Source: Escallonia rubra
Lineage: Eukaryota; Streptophyta; Magnoliopsida; Escalloniales; Escalloniaceae
DNA: 64,000 nt
Direction of reading: 5' to 3'
Assembly (NCBI GenBank): GCA_033065855.1
Contig: JAVXUO010000799.1
Location: 1-64,000, forward strand
This document shows positions 23,395-55,530 of this stretch, in pieces (positions within the stretch are counted from its first letter, which is position 1; every line of letters starts with the position of its first letter). The translations under genes were made by a program, and so were the position numbers. Below the pieces are notes generated by a model. The model made no database searches. It saw nothing but the letters and a program-made list of their open reading frames with translations, and was not told where the DNA came from.

Positions 23395-24495
23395 ATGGAG
23401 AACTGGTCTGGACTTCTACATGATCTCTTGGTCGAGATCGCCAAAAAGATTACTTGTATCGAAGATTTTGTGTCGTTTGGCGCAGTTTGCCGCTCATGGT
23501 ACGCGGCTGCAACCAGGGAGAATTTCACTCGATCTACTCAAATCCCTTGGCTTATGCTTGCCGATGTAGAGCAGCAAAACGAATCGGAACGGTGGCGACA
23601 ATTCTTCAGCCTATCAAGCGGCAGGATATTCAAAGTCATCCTACCGGAAGCCAGCCGAATCCGGAGTTTGTCTTCCCTGGGATGGCTCCTCACACTAGGA
23701 GAGCTGAAGGCAAATCTACTGCATCCGCTTTCACGACTTCAAATCCAGCTACCAGATCTCAACACCTTTCAAGATTACGAAGAACAAGAGAACTTCGTCC
23801 TGGATTATGTTCACAAGATGGTGTTATCGGCAAGCCCTGCAGCAACACGTGATTACTTGGTCATGGTTACCCATGGATTCGCTACGAGCTTAGGGTTTTG
23901 GAGGCCAGGTGATGCGTCATGGACCGCCGTAGATCCATGGGAGTCGTATATCCATGATATCACTTACTACGAGGACAAGTTGTACGCTGTGGACGTTCAT
24001 GGCAGCGTCATCGTATGTGACGTTAATGGCCCTAATCCAACCCAGGTAAACTTAATCTCGTCGCCGCCTGATGGATTCCTTCCTTTACCGAATGAACAAC
24101 TCTATTTGCTAGGATGGTTAAACAACACATTGCTTGTTGTCTCGCGAAAAGGGGTGCAGTTGACTAGTGCAGTAATCTATCGGACATCTACTTTCCGAGT
24201 TTTCCAACTGGATTTACGCGATAAGAAGTGGTCTGAGATCAATAATTTGGGAAACCGAGCCTTGTTCTTGGGGTTCAATTCATCGTTTTCTATGGAGACT
24301 TCCGATACGAATAGATGCAAGGCTAATTGCATATATTTCACCGATCATACTATTGATAGATATCTTTCGTTTCCCGGCATCGGCGGCAGGGATATGGGAG
24401 TTTTTAATTTATTGGATGGAAGCATTGAGCCCCGTTTCGATGCAAGATCTTATACTCTTATTACTCCACCTACATGGGTCCAACCAAGCTTTTGA
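23395..24495 (+). CDS. F-box/DUF295 protein, array copy 1
   Basis: Single-exon gene of 366 codons. The N-terminal F-box (about residues 4-40: WSGLLHDLLVEIAKKI, then FVSFGAVCRSWYAAA) would bind SKP1 in an SCF ubiquitin ligase. The rest is a DUF295/KIB1-4-type beta-propeller, with blocks GFWRPGDASWTAVD, DKLYAVDVHGSVIVCDV, CIYFTDH and the ending MGVFNLLDGSIEP.....PPTWVQPSF. Substrate is unknown; some family members act in signalling or organelle control. The ATG at 23395 is chosen because all five copies share it as MENW or MESW with equal length; upstream in-frame codons are only TTG. A Pack-MULE lies 36 bp after the stop. Confidence 0.9.
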   Translation: MENWSGLLHDLLVEIAKKITCIEDFVSFGAVCRSWYAAATRENFTRSTQIPWLMLADVEQQNESERWRQFFSLSSGRIFKVILPEASRIRSLSSLGWLLTLGELKANLLHPLSRLQIQLPDLNTFQDYEEQENFVLDYVHKMVLSASPAATRDYLVMVTHGFATSLGFWRPGDASWTAVDPWESYIHDITYYEDKLYAVDVHGSVIVCDVNGPNPTQVNLISSPPDGFLPLPNEQLYLLGWLNNTLLVVSRKGVQLTSAVIYRTSTFRVFQLDLRDKKWSEINNLGNRALFLGFNSSFSMETSDTNRCKANCIYFTDHTIDRYLSFPGIGGRDMGVFNLLDGSIEPRFDARSYTLITPPTWVQPSF

Positions 24496-24531
24496 ACACC
24501 CCTCTTAGGTCGGGCAGCTAGCGATGGACAT

Positions 24532-25647
24532 GAACAAAATTTGCTGCTGATCAGGTAGCAGTTTGTTCCTGCTACCCTGCCAAGTGACAGCTTCTGAGTG
24601 GTCCACCTGTCCGGCTGCCATCCATATTTCACGTGAGCAACCTTGCTTCAGATAACGGCTTGTTGCTGTTAAACAACACATTTTCAGCATTTTCCTTGTA
24701 CTTTTTCTTCTGCAATTTTGGTGGCATCATATACAGCTTTCTTGGAACATGGTGCTAACATAGGAATGTGGTTCTGGACATTACAATTTTCTCTCTTCTT
24801 GCATGCCTTTATGCTTCTTGTGACTCTCTATGTCCACTTAATGCTTGGAATGAAGGGAAGCTCCGGTTACACGTCCTGCACTCGTAGCTTTCGACTATAA
24901 TCTTCTCTTGACAACCACTTTGAGCCAATAGAATCAGGCAATTCGCCATGTCTTCGTCTTCATCCATGCCGGCAGATATTTCATCTGAAGTTGTAGGAGA
25001 TGGCAATGAAAAGTAAGCGCCACCTCCTTCAGCACCACCACCACTGCTACCGTCACTACCGCCACCATACGACGAGCTCGAGGTCATCGCCACGCCAAAC
25101 GGGGATGGGGGCCTTTGACGCTTGTACGCTTCCCTTTGACGATGTGATGGGTGTGATCATTGTATCCCGAAAACTCTTCCTCATTTTCCATGAAATCCAT
25201 CACAAACAAACTACCACTGGAAAAGCTGAAGGGAAATGAAAAATACGGGAACAGAATAGGTTGCTGCTGAAGCAAACAAATATACCTAGATGGGAATGGG
25301 TGAATTGGCTTCTGTTATATATAGTGAATGGTAAGGAAGTTAATGGAAACCAAATTTCCTTGCATTTCAACTTACAAAAATCGTTCACTGAACAAAATTA
25401 TGCTGCTCGTTTGATGAAATTTTGATGCCCAGGTGAGTAATTCGGAGGAAGAAGATGGGAAAAGGGAGAGAGAGAGAGAGAGAAAGAAAACTAGGGATGT
25501 GCTTTTTGACGGCAACAAGCCGTTATCTGAAGCAAGGTTGCTCACGTGGGATATGAATGGCGGCCGGACAGGTGGACAACTCCAAATTTGCCACGTGGCA
25601 GGGTAACAAGAACAAGCTGCTACCTAGTCAGCAGCAAAATTTTGTTC
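24532..25647. mobile_element. Pack-MULE with captured zinc-finger gene fragment
   Basis: Inverted ends of about 145 bp (24532-24677 and 25505-25647) start GAACAAAATTTGCTGCTGA on the left and GAACAAAATTTTGCTGCTGA on the right strand. They share CCACCTGTCCGGC, CACGTGAGCAACCTTGCTTC and GATAACGGCTTGTTGC. Flanks are an identical 9-bp GATGGACAT at 24523-24531 and 25648-25656, the Mutator signature. The same site after F-box copy 2 (32653-32661) is single, so this is an empty site. The interior encodes a host zinc-finger fragment on the minus strand and no transposase. Confidence 0.92.
24809..25093 (-). pseudogene. ZAT-type C2H2 zinc-finger fragment inside the Pack-MULE
   Basis: About 94 codons on the minus strand. 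After a Ser/Gly-rich start come an acidic stretch DEDEDMANCLILLAQSG, typical of the N-terminus of plant ZAT-like C2H2 repressors, and a finger ESYECRTCNRSFPSFQALSG. The plant-specific QALGGH core appears as QALSGH. The reading then changes to HRESQEA and stops where the family has HRASHKK. A 2-bp loss would explain this and removes the second zinc-binding histidine from frame. Only the first finger is present; the second finger and EAR motif of a full ZAT are absent. Likely non-functional or a source of small RNA against the donor gene (inference). Confidence 0.8.
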
Positions 25648-25656
25648 GATGGACAT

Positions 25657-29273: not shown

Positions 29274-30857
29274 GAGAGCTGATCCGTTGAGAGCGTTAGC
29301 AAAATAGGAGAAGTTGCAAGCGCGATCTGACCGTCCATCCTTCAGGATGGACGGCCATATCGCGCCTTTTTGGAATACTGTCAGTCGTCCGCGATACAGT
29401 ATAGCGGACGGACTTTTTTGCCCTCTGACCCGTCCGCTATACTGTATCGCGGACGGTCCAAATTTTTTTTTTTACGTTTTTTTTAAGTTCGTCCGCTACA
29501 TAATGTAGCAGACGATTTTTTGACAAAAATAGCCTCATGTTCCATCCGCTACATTATGTAGCGGAGGAGTAAGCATGCACACATTTGCGGTTGGCATGAT
29601 TTGCTGAAGGGCCCCACTCTATTGTCCTTTCCCCCCCATTCTTCTTCTTTTGTTCTCCAGAAACCATTCTTTCCTGAAGGCCCCACCCTATTGTCCTTTC
29701 CCCCCATTCTTCTTCTTCTTTTGTTCTCCAGAAATCATTCTTTATCTTCTTCTTCTTCTTCTTTTGTTCTCCAGAAACATACCCGCGTAAAGATGGGCCA
29801 CCCCATTGTCCTTTCCCCCCATTCTTCTTCTTCTTTTGCCTTGCCTTCAATCTGCTTCTTACACTCCACTCTTCACACTAATATACACACAGGTACCCAT
29901 TTGTAACTCTCTAATATACACATACATATACTCATATGCATATAACCAATTTCTCCAACTCCCACAGCTAGACCCATCATCTTCTCCTTCATTCACTAAA
30001 TTTTTGTTTCCCTCCAAGCTACTGCCCTTGCTTCATTTTTCTTTCCAAAGCATAATCTTCTCAACCCAAGTCACAGCAAAGCAGCCACTGCCTCACGGCA
30101 GTGGCTTGTTATTGTCCAATCTACACACACTGCCTCACGGCAGTGGGTCCTTTTCCTATAAAACATCATACTTGACAGCCTCCCCAAGGCTGTTTCTCTC
30201 CAACCTTTTGGCTCCGATACACTTACGCAAGGTCCCCGTACCCAGCCGCACTCCACCACGGCTGCCATCACTCCACGGCCTCACCATGCACCAACATGAC
30301 ACGGCTGAAATTCAGCCTTCCCTTACCCATGCATACCATTTACATTATGTGTTACATCCAGAACCCATAAAAGAAATCATGGTGAGAGAAAAAAGAGAGA
30401 AAGCGTCATAAATTGATGAGAGAGAGAGAGAGAGGAAATAGAGTGTGTCAGAAATTGACGAGACAAATGAGAGAGAGAGAGAGAAACATGTCAGAATTTT
30501 AATGAGAGAAAGGACTGGAACAAAACACAATGCCAACCGCAAATGTGTGCCTGCTTACTCCTCCGCTACATAATGTAGCGGATGGAACAGGAGGCTATTT
30601 TTGTAAAAAAATCGTCCGCTACATTATGTAGCGGACGAACTTAAAAAAAACGTAAAAAAAAATTTGGACCGTCCGCGATACAGTATAGCGGACGGGTCAG
30701 AGGGCAAAAAGGTAAAAAAGTCCGTCCGCTATACTGTATCGCGGACGACTGACAGTATTCGAAAAAGGCGCGATCTGGACCGTCCATCTTTCAGGATGGA
30801 CGGCCAGATCGCGCTTGCAACTTCTCCTATTTTGCTAACGCTCTCAACGGATCAGCT

Positions 30858-30860
<3 letters not shown>
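29274..30860. mobile_element. MULE-like element with about 325-bp inverted repeats, nested in the hAT-like element
   Basis: Left 29274-29598 and right 30528-30860 are near-perfect inverted copies, starting GAGAGCTGATCCGTTGAGAG and GGGAGCTGATCCGTTGAGAG. Each arm carries self-complementary modules such as GTCCGCTACAT.ATGTAGCGG and GTCCGC.ATAC.GTAT.GCGGAC. Both sides are TA repeats, so a target duplication cannot be judged. The middle has three repeats of a CCCATTCTTCTTCTT/TTGTTCTCCAGAAA block and several short hairpins, but no recognisable protein. The small MITE at 5999-6389 is a relative. Confidence 0.75.
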
Positions 30861-32626: not shown

Positions 32627-35460
32627 ACACCCCTCTTAGGTCGGGCAGCTAGCGATGGACATTACCTAGCACCATAGAGCAGGTAGTGTTTCGCCTACAC
32701 GGATTAGAGACTTTAATTTAACCTTAATTTTTCGCTATTCGGGAGTTGCATGAATAAGATCCAACGGTTCATGTAATAGGTGTCCACCAATGGCTATCGT
32801 GCAAGGTTCTTACCTTTATGTCAAGTAGATATTCTCGTTGCGATCAATTATTTAAGCAGCTTGTTTTAGCGTGGCGCAGGTTTTCTAGTAGATTTTTCTT
32901 ATTGTTGTGCTGTTGTTTGTGACTTAAATGCTTCATGTTGGAATGACGGGGTTAGCACATGTTGTTTTCCTAGTACTTCTATACATGCAATTACCTTGAT
33001 GGAACAACAACCTGGTTTCAATACATATCAACGAGTTGCCATGGGTTTTACACTGTGATCTACATGCATAATTAGTTTAAGTCACGAGTTCAACCGTTCG
33101 TATTTGCAACTTAACGAGGCTACATGTTGCAGACGTGAATTTAATTAGAAGTTCAATCCTTCGTATTAGCATGTAGTTCAATAAGAAGTAAGAGTACATT
33201 AAATTATGAGTAAGTTAATTAGTTTTGAAAGGTCCTAAAGCTCTTGAACAAAAGAACCCGAAATTCTTTCTCAACTTCTCATTATCATTTAATGGGCATT
33301 TTAGACCAAACCTCATCTTTTATTTCGGACATGTATCTATCGAATACTTGAATCGGTCATGACACGTTCTTGCGCTTGCATTTCGCCTTAAGTACTTTCA
33401 ACTATTAGCAGGGTAACTGAATATATCTGTTTGTTCAAAGGTGTATAACTGAAGATTAGAGGCTTATGAATGCTGTAACACTCTTAGTAATAACGAATTA
33501 AAGTCCAAGTGTGTTTCAATTTGTACAGATTTGGCACAATGATGTCGACGATACAAAGTTACGAGGTGAAACTAAATCTGTAGCTTAGGGCTCTGAAAAG
33601 AGGTGAAGAAGTTAGAAAACTATGGTGGCGGCGTAGGTCTACAGTGAGGCAGAAAAAGTCGGTGGTGGTTGTGGGGGTGATGACAAGGCTGCAAGGCCCA
33701 AAAAATGGACTATGTCATGAGCAATGAAGGATAAACCAGAAAGTAGCAGAAGAGAGGACTAGGAGTAGCTGAAGAAACATAAGGAATATGCCACTTTTGT
33801 GAATGGATGTATATTTTCTGGACTAGGATCCCCTCTCGTACATCATCTTTTTGCTTTAATTGAAAAATGTCACTAAATGCATGTTACGGCCAAACAATTG
33901 TCACCATAAATTTTAGCAAAAGGACTAAATAAGGACACATTGCAGTTTGGGTTATGGCACGTTTTCGAGAAACAAGTGGTGGTGATTAATTATGACGTGC
34001 CGAGAATTGTAATAAAGGCGGACGGCGATTACCGTGATTGGTTTGGCGGTGCCCATGGGATGGTTTTGAACTTTGAAATTTCGAGGTACTGAAGTCGAGT
34101 TTATAATGTATATTCTAGGGCAAAAATTTCAAAACGTTTATTATGAGATGGATAATTTTTGCTAAAAAGATGGCCTTTTTAGCACTATGCACTCATTCTT
34201 AAACGAATGCAAATAAAAACAAAGCATGACCACGAGAAAAGAAAGAAAAGAAAATATTTTTTTTAGAGATTAAAAATATATACCAGAAGCTGTTTTAAGA
34301 CCGAATATACAGAACATATAAAAATAAAAGATATGAAATGGATGACAACCCCGTCCGAAAGGCGCAAAACAACTAACTACAAAACAAAGAAACTACAAGT
34401 ACAAATAACTATTTGAACAGATAAACAAAAGAGAAAACCTAAGTAAAACAAGATAACCATGAACTAAAAACAGATAAAGACTAAAATTAACAACCAATAA
34501 ACAAACACCAGCAAAATAGGCTTCCACAAGCCCAAATAGCTGATATTGCCCCATCACTGTAACGTGGCAACGATTCCCCATGCATCCATGCCGGTGCTGG
34601 ATAACGCCACCATCGCCGGTAATCTCACCGCTGCTGATCTCCGGAGAAAAACTAGAACAAAACCAAAGCCCTGCACAACAACCGACTGACCACCAAACCC
34701 CACGGAAGAACCGACCGTGACCACCGAAAAATACAGTCATCAGTAACTGAAACTCATCATCTTCAAAAACTCCGGCAACCGATGTCCCTAAAAAACGCCA
34801 ACTAGATCCAATCAGCTACTCGTAAACCTAACCCCAACAGCAACCCGCAAGACCTTTCTAGGGAAAGGGGGAATCAACCGGGGGGGGGGGGGGAGGAGGG
34901 GGAAACAAACCCTAGATGAACAAAACCTAACCCTAGACTCACCATCCCAACACCAACCCGTGGCAACGCAACTAATCACAAAACCGATTGCAAAACCCAA
35001 CTCCCAAAACCCACCACAACCCAATTGCAGATCCCCCTCAAAGATCCAACAGCTTCCCCCTAGCAACTCTTCTAACTGAGCTCCAACGACGGAAACCATA
35101 GATCTGCAGTCTGATCAAGTGCGACCGACTGCAAATGTTGTTTCTAAGTAACTGATCCAACATCACATTCGAGCATTGCATTTATTTCACTTTTAATTTA
35201 TTTGCAAAGACCCAAAAGCAGACATTACAAGTGACAAGAAGTAGGTAGTAGTTTAGTTGTTCCTGAGTCTTGGAGCAAATTAGTAAAAATTTAGAAAAGC
35301 TTTACTCTAGTGTTAGTTGACACTCCAGTGACAAGGTGTCAAGAGCGCAACAAATAATATCATATGATGTTGTTTGATACTGATATTTATTGTATCAGAC
35401 TTGTCAAAGAACGCAACAAATAATAGCAGACGATGTCACAATATTTGATGCAATATCTGA
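32627..35460. repeat. Array spacer, unit 2
   Basis: Collinear with the unit 1 spacer except for the Pack-MULE, which is absent, and a segment with a G-run at 34825-34935 that unit 1 lacks. Beyond 35460 it continues into CTTGCCC..TTTCGTATGAT, which unit 1 lacks because it joins unit 2 there. Confidence 0.75.
34256..35136 (-). mobile_element. Retroposon-like insertion in unit 2
   Basis: Same insertion and site as 27246-28019, so it predates the split of units 1 and 2. It is longer here by a G-rich segment around 34825-34935. Not recognised as a known protein. Confidence 0.5.
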
Positions 35461-38229: not shown

Positions 38230-39689
38230 ACACACCTCTAAGGTCGGGCAGGGATGGACATTACCTAGCATCATGCCTACACCGATTAGAGACTTTAATT
38301 AACCTTAGTTTCTGCTATTTGAGAGTCGCGTGAGCAAGATCCAACGGTTCACGTAATAGGTGTCCACCAATGGCTATCGTGCAAAGTTCTTACCTTTATG
38401 TCAAAGAAATATATTCGTTGCGATCGTTGTCCAATATATTTTAGAATTATATAAGCAGCTCATATTAGCGTGGCCAAGGTTTCCTAGTATATTGTTCTTA
38501 CTTTTGTGTTGTTGTTTGTGACTCAATGCTTCATGTTGCAATGACGGGTCAGCACATGTTACGTATCAACGAGTTGCCATGGGTTTTATGTTGTATTTGT
38601 TGCGCTCTTTGCACCTCGTCACTGGAGTGTCAATTACCTCGATGGAACTACAACCCGGTTTCTTACGTATCAATGAGTTGCCATGGGTTTTATGTTATAT
38701 TTATATGCATAGTTACTTTTAAGTCACGGGTTCAATCCTTCGTATTCACAACTTAACAAAGCTACATGTTGTAGACATGAACTTAACTTTTATTTCAGAC
38801 ATGTATTTACCGAATACTTGACTCGGGTCATGGCACATTCTTGCCCTTGCATTTCGCATTAAGTACTTTCAACTATTAGCAGGGTTAACTGAATATCTGT
38901 TTGTTCAAATGTGTATTGCTGAAGATGAGAGGCTTATTATGAATGTTGCAACACTCTTAGTAATAAAGAATTACAGTCCAAGTATGTTTCAATTTGTACA
39001 GATTTGGCACAATGATGTCGAAGAAGTGAAGAAGTTAGAAAACTATGGTGGCGGCGTAGGTTTACGTCCGGGCAGAAAAAGGAGGTGGTGGTGGTTGTTG
39101 TGGGGGGTGATGACAAGGCTGCAAGTCCCAAAAAATATATATTCTGGACTAGGATCCCCTCTCGTGCATCATCTTTGCTTTAATTGAAAAATGTCACTAA
39201 ATGCATGTTACGGCCAATCAATTGTCACCATAAATTTTAGCCAAGGACTAATTAGGGACACGTCGAAGTTTGGGTTATATGGCACATTTTAGAGAAACAG
39301 GTGGTGGTGATTATGACGTGTGGAGAATCGTAATAAAGGTGGACGGCGATTACCGTGGTTGGTTTGGTGGTGCCCGTGGGATGGTTTTGAACTTTTGAAA
39401 GATCGAGGTACTGAAGTCGAGTATATAATGTATACTTAGGGCGAAAATTTCAAAACGTTTGTTATGAGATGGATAAATTTTGCTAAAAAAAGGGCCTTTT
39501 TAGCACTATGCACTCATTCTTCAACAAATGCAGTCAAAGCATGACCACGAGAAAAGAAAGAAAAGAAAATGTTGTTTCTAAGTAACTGATTAGTCGCACC
39601 TCACATTCTAGCATTGCATTTATTTCACTTTTAATTTATTTGCAAAGACCCAAAGACATCACAAGTGACAAGAAGTAGGTAGTAGTTTA
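38230..39689. repeat. Array spacer, unit 3
   Basis: 3' block shared with the other units, shorter than in units 1 and 2. Contains an inverted fragment near 38595-38632 (TTGCGCTCTTTGCACCTCG) that elsewhere in the spacers occurs on the opposite strand. No gene seen. Confidence 0.65.
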
Positions 39690-48358: not shown

Positions 48359-51357
48359 ACACACCTCAAAGGTCGGGCAGCGATGGACATTACCTAGCGT
48401 CATAGAAATTAGCTGGTAGTGTTTTGCATACACTAATTAGAGACTTTAATTAACCTTAATTTCTGCTATTTGAGAGTTGCCTGAGCAAGATCCAACGGTT
48501 CACGTAATAGGTGTCCACCAATGGCTAGCGTGCAAGGTTCTTACCTTTATGTCAAAGAAATATATTCGTTGCGATCATATATTGTCTAATATATTTTAGA
48601 ATTATATAAGCAGCGCATATTAGCGTGGCCAAGGTTTCCTAGTATATTGTTCTTACTTTTGTGTTGTTGTTTATGACTGAAAGCTTCATGTTGGAATGAC
48701 GGGGTCAGCACATGTTACGTATCAACGAGTTGCCATGGGTTTTATGTTGTATTTGTTGCGCTCTTTGCACCTCGTCACTGGAGTGTCAATTAGCTCTATG
48801 GAACTACAGCCCGGTTTCTTACGTATCAACGAGTTGCCATGGGTTTTATGTTGTATTTATATGCATAGTTACTTTTAAGTCACAGGTTCAATCCTTCGTA
48901 TTCACTACTTAACAAAGCCACATGTTGTAGACACGAACTTAATAGTTCAATCCTTCGTATTAGCGTGTGGTTCAATAAGAAGTAAGAGTACATTAAATTA
49001 TGAGTAAGTTAATTAGTTTTGAAAGGCCCTAAAGCTATTGAACAAAAGAACCCGAAATTCTTTCTCAACTTCTCATTATCATTTAATGGACATTTTAGAC
49101 CAAACCTCGACTTTTATTTCGGACATGTATTTGCCGAATACTTGAATCGGTCATGACACATTCTTGCCCTTGCATTTCGCCTTAAGTACTATCAACTATT
49201 AGAAGGTTAACTGAATATCTGTTTGTTCAAATGTGTATTACTGAAGATGAGAGGCTTTTGAATGTTGTAACACTCTTACTAATAAAGAATTAAAGTCCAA
49301 GTGTGTTTCAATTTGTAAGGATTTGGCACAATGATGTCGACGATACAAAGTTAGGAGGTGAAACTAAGGCCCCGTTTGACGGAGTTTTTTTTTTCAATTT
49401 TGAAAACTGGAAAAAAAAATCGCGTTTGGTAACCATTTTTTTTTTCCTCAGTTTAAAAAATCAGTTTTAAAACTGAAGAAAAAAAAAACTCCAAAAATGA
49501 GTTTTTTTTTTCTGCTTTGGTTTTTTTTTTTTTTGAGACCACTACCGGCCGACAGCCACCTCCGGCGACCACTGCCGGCGACTACCGGCGGCAACCTCCG
49601 GTGACTGCCGACGACCACCAGCGACAACCACCGTCGGTCACCACCACGTCCTACCACCGCCACCGCAAACCACCACAAAAAAAAGCATCCAAAATAAAAA
49701 CAAGGTTATCAAATACCCACTTGTTTTTGTAAAAAATAAAAAGTTAAGCTGCTCTTTAATTTTTTTTTTCCAAAAACTGAAAACAAATTTTTTTTTGTCA
49801 AACAGATCCTCTGTAACTTAGGGCTTTGAAAAGAGGTGAAGAAGTTAGAAAACTATGGTGGCGGCATAGGTTTACGTCGAGGCAGAAAAAGGAGGTGGTG
49901 GTGGTGGTTGTGAGGGTGATCATGACAAGGCTGCAAGGCCCAAAAAATAAAATATGCCGTGAGCATTGAAGAATAAACTACTAGAAAGTAGCAGAAGAGA
50001 GTCAAGAGACGACTAGGAGTAGCTGAAGAAACATCAGGAAAATGCCACTTTCGTGAATGGTGTATATTTTCTGGACTAGGATCCCCTCTCGTACACATCA
50101 TCTTTGCTTTAATTGAAAAATGTCACTAAATGCAGGTTACGGCCAAACGATTGTCACCATAAATTTTAGCCAAGGACTAATTAGGGACACATCGAAGTTT
50201 GGGTTATGGCACATTTTAGAGAAACATGTGGTGGTGATTTTCACATGTGGAGAATCGTAATAAAGGTGGACGGCAATTACCGTGGTTGGGTTTGGTGGTG
50301 CCCATGGGATGATTTTGAACTTTGAAAGATCGAGGTGCTGAAGTCGAGTATATAATGTATATTTAGGGCAAAAATTTCAAAATGTTTATTATGAGATGGA
50401 TAAATTTTGCTAAAATGATGACCTTTTTTGCACTATGCACTCATTCTTCAACAAATGCAGATAAAGTCAAAGCATGACCACGATAAAAGAAAGAAAATAA
50501 AATGTTGTTTCTAACTAACTGATTGTGGCACATCACATTCGAGCATTGCATTTATTTCACTTTTAATTTATTTGCAAAGATCCAAAAGCAGACATTACAA
50601 GTGACAAGAAGTAGGCTGTTGTTTATTTTTTCCTTGATTTTGGAGCAAATTAGTAAATATTAAGAAAAGCTTTACTATAATGTTCTTAGAAATTCCAGTG
50701 ATGAGGTGCCAAGAGTGCAACAAATAATATCAGATGATGTTGTTTGATACTGATATTGTATCAGACTTGTCAAAGAGCGCAATAAATAATAGGAGACAAT
50801 GTCACATTCGATACTTATGCAGTGTCAAACTTGCTCTTTTCATATGATCGTCTTATCACGTGCTTAATAATAAAATAGTTGTCCTCGATTTAAATATTAG
50901 AGGAAGACCTTTATGTAGAATGGCACCGAGGGTCCTTACTGTTTCAATTCACCATGGCTTTAACTACCGGTGAACTAATGCTAATCGATATTTCAAGAAG
51001 TTTTACTGTAATTTTTCAGAAATAACTAAAGTATTACAATCATGGAAAAATATAATAAACTGTATGTAGAGTTTGTTACTTACATAAAAATAATTTTAAA
51101 AAAAATTATCAATGTTCATTTAACCGGAATTGGCGTCTTCGCTGGTGAAACATAGTATTTACGGTGCTTTTGGAGGTGGGCTAAACACAAGCAGTGTTTG
51201 AGAAAATGATCAGTTTTAAAGAATTGAATTTCTTTATGAAAAATTTTGGCCTTACTTGGATCGTAAGAATCTTTCCAAACCCGTATATAGTGACAATTAA
51301 TAGTCGTCAAATAATTATTGTGACTTTTCTGCTAACACTCAGCTTAGCAATAATTTT
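48359..51357. repeat. Array spacer, unit 4
   Basis: 3' block shared with the other units, including the inverted TTGCGCTCTTTGCACCTCG fragment near 48756 and CTATGGTGGCGGCATAGGT near 49854. It carries the MITE at 49368-49810. No gene seen. Confidence 0.65.
49368..49810. mobile_element. MITE specific to unit 4
   Basis: Interrupts GAAACTAA...CTGTAACTTAGGG, which is continuous in unit 1 (about 26571) and near 42240. Ends GGCCCCGTTTGAC and (reverse complement) AGGATCTGTTTGAC are inverted. The interior has poly-A/T near both ends and CCACCACCGGCGAC-like repeats in the middle. A similar sequence lies at 55750-56095. The exact target duplication is unclear. Confidence 0.6.
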
Positions 51358-53428: not shown

Positions 53429-54525
53429 ATGGAGAACTGGTCTGAACTTCTACATGATCTCTTGGTCGAGATTGCCAAACAAATTGCATCTATCGAAGAT
53501 TTTGTGTCGTTTGGTGCAGTTTCCAGCTCATGGTACGCGGCTGCAACCAGGGACAATTTCACCCGATCTACTCAAATCCCCTGGCTTATGCTTGCCGAAG
53601 TAGAGCATCAAAACGAATCGGAACGGTGGCGACAATTTTTCAGCCTATCAAGCGGCAGGATATTCAAAGTCATCTTCCCGGAAGCCAGCGAAATCCGGTG
53701 TCTTCCCTGGGATGGCTCCTCACACTAGGAGAGCTGAAGGCAAACCTGCTGCATCCGCTTTCACGACTTCAAATCCAGCTACCAGATCTCAACACCTTTC
53801 AAGATTACGACAAACATGAGAACTACCTCCTGGATTATGTTCATAGGATGGTGTTGTCAGCAAGCCCTGCAGCAAGACGTGATTACTTGGTCATGGTTAC
53901 CCATGGATTCGCTGCGAGCTTAGGGTTTTGGAGGCCAGGTGATGCGTCATGGACCGCCGTAGATCGATGGGAGTGGTATATCTATGATATCAGTTACTAC
54001 GAGGACAAGTTGTACGCTGTGGACGTTCATGGCAGCATCATCGTGTGTGAAGTGAATGGCCCTAATCCAACCCAGATAAACTTAGTTTCATCGCCACCTG
54101 ATGGACTCCTTCCTCTACGGAATGAACAGCTTTATTTGCTAGGATGGTTAAACAACACACTGCTTGTTGTCTCGCGAAAAGGGGTTCAGTTGACTGATGC
54201 AGGAAACTATGGCACAACTACTTTCCAAGTTTTTCAACTGGATTTACGCGATAAGAAGTGGTCTGAGATCAATAATTTGGGGAACCGAGCCTTGTTCTTG
54301 GGGTTCAATTCATCGTTTTCTATGGAGGCTTCCGATACGAATAGATGCAAGGCTAATTGCATATATTTCACCGATGATTGTGTTGATAGCTATCGTTCGT
54401 TTCCTGGCGGCGGCGGCAGGGATATGGGAGTTTTTAATTTATTGGATGGAAGCATTGAGCCCCATTTCGATGGAAGATCTTTAAGTCTTGTTACTCCACC
54501 TACATGGATCGAACCAAGCTTTTGA
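53429..54525 (+). pseudogene. F-box/DUF295 copy 5, frameshifted
   Basis: Same start (MENWSELLHDLLVEIAKQI) and same end region as the other copies, but 1097 bp long instead of 1101. The loss is at about 53697-53700: the intact copies 3 and 4 read CCGGTGCGTGTCTTCC and this copy reads CCGGTGTCTTCC. The frame then runs into a stop at 53728, giving about 99 residues: the F-box without the propeller. The remaining frame to 54525 has no further stop, so the lesion is recent. A truncated F-box-only product is possible but unproven. Confidence 0.88.
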
Positions 54526-55530
54526 ACACACCTCTGAGGTCGGGCCGGGATGGACATTACCTAGCATCATAGAAATTAGCTGGTAGTGTTTTGCCTACAC
54601 CGATTAGAGACTTTAATTAACCTTAATTTCTGCTATTTGAGAGTCGCGTGAGCAAGATCCAACGGTTCACGTAATAGGTGTCCACCAATGGCTATCGTGC
54701 AAGGTTCTTACCTTTATGTCAAAGAAATATATTCGTTGCGATCGTTGTCTAATATATTTTAGAATTATATAAGCAGCTCATATTAGCGTGGCCAAGGTTT
54801 CCTAGTATATTATTCTTACTTTTGTGTTGTTGTTTGTGACTCAATGCTTCATGTTGGAATGACGGGTCAGCACATGTTACGTATCAACGAGTTGCCATGG
54901 GTTTTATGTTGTATTTGTTGCGCTCTTTGCACCTCGACGCTCCAGTGACGAGGTGTAAAGAGCGCAACAAATAATATCATATGATGTTGTTTGATACTGA
55001 TATATATTTATTGTATTAGACTTGTCAAAGAGTACGTGCAACAAATAATAGCAGACGATGTCACAATATTTGATACTTATGCAATATCAGACTTGCCCTT
55101 TTCGTATGGTCACCTTATCACATGTTTGAAAATAAAATAGCTGTCCTCGAGTGAAAGATTAGATAGAGACTTTTATGCAAAATGGCACCAAGAGTCCTAA
55201 TTGTTTCACCATGGCTTTAAATAGCTACCGGTGAACTTATGCTAAACGAGGTTTCAGAAAGTTTTACGATAGTTTTCTAGAAATAACTAAAGTATTACAA
55301 CCACCACGAAATATAATAAGTTGTACATTTTTTGAGTTTGTCTCTTGACTGAAAAATACTATGTTAATACTTTAACAATAATATTGCATAATATGGTGCA
55401 TAAACAGAACAATTATTTGATTTGCCTAATTTATTGTACAAAATAATATTTGTTGCTTAAAGAGTCTAAATGATATGGTTGGTTGTGTGCCATATATTAT
55501 ATAATGGAAAAGAAAAGGTAGTATTGCTTT
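54526..55530. repeat. Array spacer, unit 5 (right end of the array)
   Basis: Shortened spacer in which the 5' part joins the 3' part through an inverted fragment, forming the hairpin at 54913-54972. Array homology fades by about 55530, where CATGGGCGGATCCAGAAAGT, a hAT-like terminus, begins. Confidence 0.65.
54913..54972. repeat. 24-bp inverted repeat, 12-nt loop
   Basis: Arms 54913-54936 and 54949-54972 are complementary with one G-U-type mismatch. Core TTGCGCTCTTTGCACCTCG pairs with CGAGGTGTAAAGAGCGCAA. Confidence 0.9.

Follow-up and report, generated by a model that had tools for sequence, protein, structure and literature searches.

A ZAT-carrying, non-autonomous MULE behind one unit of a tandem F-box array, very probably derived by internal deletion from longer transposase-bearing elements

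The window, that is, the whole 64-kb stretch of DNA analysed here (contig C2684 of a 566-Mb assembly, to judge by its genes that of a plant), contains five tandem F-box/KIB1-4 beta-propeller gene units on the plus strand. In the profile search with unit 1 the KIB1-4 propeller reached 201 bits, above the cut-off, and the F-box models stayed under it. A spacer of 36 bp (24496-24531) separates the stop codon of this unit from the start of an insertion of 1,116 bp (24532-25647), hereafter the window element, which has GATGGACAT at both sides and whose inverted ends align over 146 nt without gaps at 86% identity, or over 150/151 bp at 86% when one gap is allowed. The initial annotation had described this architecture correctly, with inverted ends of about 145 bp, a perfect 9-bp duplication and a distance of 36 bp to the F-box stop. 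The features of the locus are the following, where C2312 is the donor gene and L009, L010, L011 and L017 are related elements elsewhere in the genome, all described below:

23395-24495, plus strand: F-box/KIB1-4 beta-propeller gene unit 1, open over 366 codons, its stop lying 36 bp before the insertion
24523-24531: left 9-bp target-site duplication GATGGACAT, a 9/9 match to the right one
24532-24681: left terminal inverted repeat (TIR), 150 bp, 86% identical to the right TIR
24676-24681: putative internal-deletion junction between the opposite-end TIR and the ZAT arm, with a 3-bp exact overlap (CAT) relative to L009 and L010
24676-25347, minus strand: main captured block, homologous to the donor from about -168 to codon 178, 83%
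24820-24886, minus strand: captured C2H2 (QALSGH) finger, with a 2-bp deletion at about 24826/24827 that shifts the frame before the second His
25123-25124, minus strand: 1-bp deletion between KGKRT and KRQRP, common to the long-arm copies of L009, L010 and L011
25198-25200, minus strand: captured ZAT start codon, placed by the donor alignment
25315-25323, minus strand: captured TATA box, within a 28-nt stretch shared exactly with the donor, facing the F-box 3' end
25349-25387, minus strand: further captured promoter segment, corresponding to about -259 to -220 of the donor
25388-25496: subterminal stretch from the ZAT promoter to the right TIR, of which the 25431-25487 part matches family elements (for example, L017 at 95%)
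25497-25647: right TIR, 151 bp, 86% identical to the left TIR
25648-25656: right 9-bp target-site duplication GATGGACAT, a 9/9 match to the left one
32654-32662: empty site of unit 2, single GATGGACAT in the same context
38253-38261: empty site of unit 3, single GATGGACAT in the same context
48382-48390: empty site of unit 4, single GATGGACAT in the same context
54549-54557: empty site of unit 5, single GATGGACAT

A 23-mer that joins the two flanks of the insertion is found exactly in unit 2 (32648-32670), where an uninterrupted site had already been annotated; unit 3 has it with 3 mismatches and unit 4 with 2. The pattern gave 0 matches in 100 shuffles, and a chance origin of the empty sites was rejected on this ground. 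When the element is left out, units 1 and 2 agree at 60/60 positions of the initial alignment block, the one covering the insertion site. This agreement, together with the four empty sites, indicates that the insertion is specific to unit 1 and took place after the split of units 1 and 2, in line with what had been proposed initially, and the element is absent from 4/4 of the other units. The coding sequences of both units share 95.9% identity (dN 0.037, dS 0.058) and, judged from this divergence, the insertion is young, since it postdates the split. Precise excision from units 2-5 was rejected as an alternative to insertion in unit 1 because it would require four precise excisions. A search of the assembly for a second haplotype of the locus found none: the 3' flank of the insertion matched no contig other than C2684 (10/10 matches listed).

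Other features of the array were also recorded. The open frame of unit 5 (53530-54525, 331 codons) differs from units 1-4 at its N-terminus, as if frameshifted, and a second transposon-like element, a fold-back of 1,583 bp (29276-30858), lies between units 1 and 2; its inverted arms measure about 320-330 bp and are 94% identical, and it has subterminal palindromic CGTCCGC repeats and an adjoining TA microsatellite. No second copy of it was found within the window.

The interior of the window element consists of ZAT sequence plus family subterminal sequence, and no transposase was observed by eye in its six-frame translation. The C2H2 fragment annotated on the minus strand was recovered with the Pfam model zf-C2H2_6 at 32.8 bits (cut-off 25), and a PDB search with the captured fragment returned weak matches only, the best one to the SUPERMAN zinc finger (E 0.1). 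The idea that the finger could be part of a transposase was rejected, given that its type is QALGGH and its donor a host gene, and that the transposase of the family is of the FAR1+MULE type.

The parental gene that the initial annotation had anticipated exists as a separate and intact donor at C2312:420717-421559, with an open reading frame of 281 codons from the ATG, no internal stop and two QALGGH-type fingers encoded; we take this gene, and with it the captured fragment, to be ZAT-type. The search of the 6-kb donor locus gave no TIR match. Searching the genome with its translation produced 63 matches, only two of them near full length and free of stops, namely C2312 itself and C2463 (56% amino acid identity), with C917:801061 and C2337 as more distant open-frame relatives. 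The insert is 83% identical to the donor at the DNA level, gaps counted, and covers about -259 to -220 and -168 to codon 178. It carries the TATA box of the donor, exact over the 28-nt block that contains it, the 5' leader and codons 1-178, so that the donor core promoter and leader have to be added to what had been annotated. Two small frame-breaking deletions relative to the donor, of 1 and 2 bp, affect the captured coding sequence. The 2-bp deletion lies in a CT run between the finger histidines and is present in the window copy and absent from L009, L010 and L011; the loss of frame noted at the outset is thus real, but its cause is this deletion and not a lesion within the second histidine. 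The 1-bp deletion, located earlier in the coding sequence, is a separate lesion not previously annotated. Differences between the window copy and the donor amount to 12, 11 and 17% at codon positions 1, 2 and 3, a spread as expected for a copy that would lack coding constraint.

Copies of the ends elsewhere in the genome, as anticipated at the outset, belong to a family of relatives that includes transposase-bearing elements. The whole-genome search with the window element yielded at least 114 matching stretches (40 of 109 candidates scored), and we inspected 20 loci around the best matches plus three more transposase loci. Relatives of 5.9-8.1 kb carry transposase remains together with the same ZAT piece. 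L009 measures 6,209 bp, is flanked by a perfect TTTCGAGAA duplication and contains ZAT sequence in both arms; perfect duplications also flank L021 (ATATTTGAC), L023 (TTATTTATT) and L050 (TTTATTCTT), those of L015, L026, L028 and L049 match at 8/9 positions, no matching duplication was found at the element ends of L011 and L014, and L010 has one damaged end. L009, L010 and L011 share a common plan, with the ZAT promoter and leader facing inward in both arms, which are inverted over roughly 390-570 bp, one arm extending up to donor position 2138-2140 (codon ~213) and the transposase remains lying in between and starting under the other arm, at 1,340, 1,312 and 1,021 bp, respectively, from its ATG to the element end. 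The transposase DNA of L010 and L011 is 91-92% identical to that of L009, and Pfam models for FAR1 and MULE matched parts of L009 and L015, but no long open transposase frame was found in L009, L010 or L011. The transposase-side arms of these three elements read as free of the 1-bp deletion (by letter count, the aligner having gapped two there). In the same arms the ZAT TATA region occurs a second time, directly after the first ZAT codons in L009 and L010.

Two further MULEs of about 6.0 kb, L049 (C1947, 271-6312) and L050 (C268, 242-6268), possess open FAR1+MULE frames of 755 and 704 codons, respectively; in L049 the MULE domain (PF10551) scored 110.7 bits, FAR1 75.9 bits and SWIM 19.0 bits against a cut-off of 19.6. 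In both, a ZAT relic of about 117 bp is located opposite the transposase side, and no ZAT sequence was found in the transposase-side arm. These open frames indicate that a transposase source may exist, and its action on the ends of the window element, 74-80% identical to those of L049 and L050, is a candidate one. The relic of L049 is present at 98-100% identity in six places, L049 itself included (C3026, C1947, C1767, C1378, C268 and C2359), which suggests either a recent burst or a duplication in the assembly.

Several relatives showed peculiarities of their own. L015 (C1020, 969-8857) is a 7.9-kb MULE with 171-bp inverted ends that are 97.7% identical, differ from those of L009 further inward and enclose the transposase together with a ZAT piece that matches that of the window element at 94%; by sequence, its ends look swapped. 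L020 (C949) presents MULE right ends in one orientation at 2288, 5763, 7549 and 9329, with a spacing of about 1.78 kb among the last three, as a tandem array. In L017 (C1653, 3046-7140), long open frames that resemble by eye a Copia-type polyprotein separate the ZAT piece from the MULE end and are probably a nested insertion.

At its present site the window element is most likely a passenger in the F-box 3' region. From its orientation, it is possible that a read-through transcript would carry antisense ZAT sequence, with the donor TATA box oriented towards the F-box gene. A stronger proposal, that F-box read-through would generate antisense ZAT RNA and a TIR hairpin and would lower the donor ZAT mRNA via small RNAs, we consider unlikely. 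The orientation suits it, element and donor gene region share 56 exact 21-mers (the longest exact block being 44 nt), and the element lies probably in the 3' UTR because it begins 36 bp past the stop, but the same donor sequence is present in several other copies, so that this particular insertion need not matter for such an effect.

It seems quite unlikely, likewise, that the captured ZAT core promoter is alive, driving the transposase in L009-type elements and antisense RNA to F-box unit 1 in the window. The TATA-bearing block identical to the donor would agree with this, as would the arm of L009, L010 and L011 that places the ZAT promoter and the second TATA-region piece upstream of the transposase ATG. 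However, the three elements with this arm are those without a long open transposase frame, and the elements with open frames, L049 and L050, retain only the relic at the other side. A transposase under the ZAT promoter was rejected as a general feature of the family, since the arm is present in 3/7 inspected transposase-bearing loci. Combining both ideas, a MULE lineage would have taken the ZAT promoter into both arms and placed part of the family's transposase under it, with derivatives that scatter the promoter and a window copy that aims it at the F-box gene while read-through the opposite way produces donor antisense RNA; this composite picture is, in our judgement, very unlikely.

The comparison with L009 bears on how the window element itself arose. 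Positions 145-1116 of the element match the long ZAT arm of L009 and positions 1-150 match its opposite end; the overlap at this junction is of 3 exact bases (CAT) in comparison with L009 and L010, there is none with L011, and it could be a product of chance. A search allowing up to 3 mismatches located the junction a single time in the assembly and found no other copy sharing the deletion. Because, in addition, the best other match to the window element is 87% over most of its length among the 40 scored of 109 candidates, the immediate parent copy is unseen; the nearest copy in the ZAT part is L010, with 96% identity over about 320 bp and 87% in the matching TIR. Homology to the donor reaches 2138-2140 in five relatives (L009, L010, L011, L012 and L021), past position 2034, where that of the window element ends at its TIR, which argues that a longer capture preceded the window form. 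The window element is therefore very probably an internal-deletion derivative, as far as sequence comparison can tell, of longer capture-bearing MULEs that was subsequently inserted behind unit 1, and most likely it did not itself capture the ZAT gene.

The age of the capture was approached with the transposase DNA of L009, which gave at least 44 matched stretches (40 of 58 candidates scored). Among the matches listed, 11/11 near-complete transposase copies at 91% or more to that of L009, L009 included, have ZAT sequence within about 2.5 kb, with membership of the same element judged from distance for C3026, C1767, C1378, C2359 and C1477. Four transposase copies at 87-88% (C821, C1957, C852 and C1651) showed no ZAT match nearby among the matches listed, and the 7.2 kb inspected at C821 contained no ZAT sequence. 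Since ZAT lies beside all the copies at 91% or more and near none of those at 87-88%, the capture seems to fall on the branch leading to the 91% clade, long before the insertion in the window. The qualifier "recent" given at the outset consequently fits the insertion alone, in view of the 83% identity between captured part and donor and of the 86% between the two ends; the capture itself is old.

Direct capture, in which a short element would have taken the ZAT DNA between two TIRs and the long forms would come from later recombination with it, appears highly improbable. The captured block does abut the left TIR in the window element, and the window ZAT sequence is slightly nearer to the donor (87%) than the other nine copies compared (76-86%), but a short form ending at 2034 would be unable to supply the additional donor sequence of the five longer relatives, and its junction was seen once, against ZAT beside every one of the close transposase copies listed. 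By anatomy, and on its sequence, the window element is a non-autonomous MULE and a Pack-MULE, with long TIRs, a 9-bp duplication, no transposase and a host-gene fragment with a separate parental gene. A self-acquired fragment belongs to the common picture of Pack-MULEs and not to their anatomical definition, and the window element most likely does not fit that picture because longer transposase-bearing relatives already carry a longer capture. The Pack-MULE with a ZAT-type fragment annotated initially is thus retained as a non-autonomous MULE with a captured host fragment, and self-capture is considered improbable.

In an unrooted tree built from the donor and 10 element copies, without L028 and the C2463 paralog, whose matched stretches fell under 120 bp, the window element, L009, L010, L015 and L017 were separated from L011, L012, L014, L016 and L021 with support of 0.992, the donor joining between them. 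Independent capture of the same ZAT gene by two or more different MULEs could be read from these groups, but is highly improbable, as the 1-bp deletion is present in 4/4 aligned long-arm copies from both groups (window element, L009, L010; L011), the five long copies, again from both groups, share the far donor boundary, and a donor placed between the groups also fits a single capture with the donor as outgroup.

For the internal-deletion origin we propose the following course. By comparison of the copies, an ancestor of the FAR1+MULE-transposase family would have gained a ZAT stretch from about -259 to codon ~213, probably beside the end 3' of the transposase. The ZAT promoter, leader and first codons, found also in the transposase-side arm of the three copies L009-L011, would have been copied there in a presumed direction from the first arm. 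The next step is seen in the comparison of the copies: an internal deletion at the 3-bp overlap, by a repair pathway that we can only suppose, took away about 5 kb (measured on L009), including the transposase, and joined the ZAT arm to no more than the terminal 150 bp of the opposite end. The last step is directly visible in the 9-bp duplication: once units 1 and 2 had diverged, the deletion product inserted downstream of F-box unit 1, 36 bp from its stop codon, presumably with a related transposase acting in trans.

Elements of similar anatomy have been described. The passages of PMC3310237 on the tomato PM-ZIBP Pack-MULEs present non-autonomous MULEs of about 1 kb (PM-ZIBP-1, 944 bp, outer TIR identity 87%) with a 9-bp duplication, long TIRs and a captured piece of a zinc-binding protein gene whose parental gene is elsewhere, as here. 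Unlike what is described there, the capture in our case is present in transposase-bearing relatives, the short form would result from internal deletion, the window element has no tandem TIRs and its junction was seen once. The same source deals with the definition of Pack-MULEs and with acquired sequence in extended TIRs, and states that the acquisition of gene fragments by MULEs was not yet understood as of 2012. A host fragment beside the transposase is likewise found in the MuDR- and Jittery-like grapevine MULEs that captured ULP, where it lies downstream, and in KI-MULE, where it is reversed (in the account of PMC2528002, which cites the latter); relative to that account, the host gene here is another one, and promoter and leader are included, in both arms in three copies. 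PMC2528002 also raises the antisense transcript of a PPR fragment captured by a CACTA element.

With respect to the transposase, FAR1 near the N-terminus, a MULE domain and a SWIM-like region near the C-terminus recall the Jittery-type MULEs (group 36 in the pertinent part of PMC6446971), a possible likeness in domain order, with SWIM just under the Pfam cut-off here; FAR1 is reported in half the members of a plant sub-group of group 35 in that source. The window element also resembles the Ds-del class of Ac as outlined in PMC3260210, in which the ends are kept, the transposase is deleted and movement occurs in trans, and differs from it in that the interior retained here is host-gene sequence. 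Together with PMC9168764, PMC8277862 and PMC13317346, this literature places the finding in a known kind, and among the open-licence papers listed we found no report of the capture of a ZAT gene by a MULE.

The type of event is itself of a known kind, and it is the record that is unusually complete: one genome holds most of the steps together, with an intact donor, capture-free relatives, transposase-bearing capture elements and deletion derivatives, one of which sits in 1/5 tandem gene units next to four empty sites. The date of an insertion and the date of the capture must be treated separately, and these results suggest that some Pack-MULEs are deletion products of longer capture-bearing elements and not direct captors.
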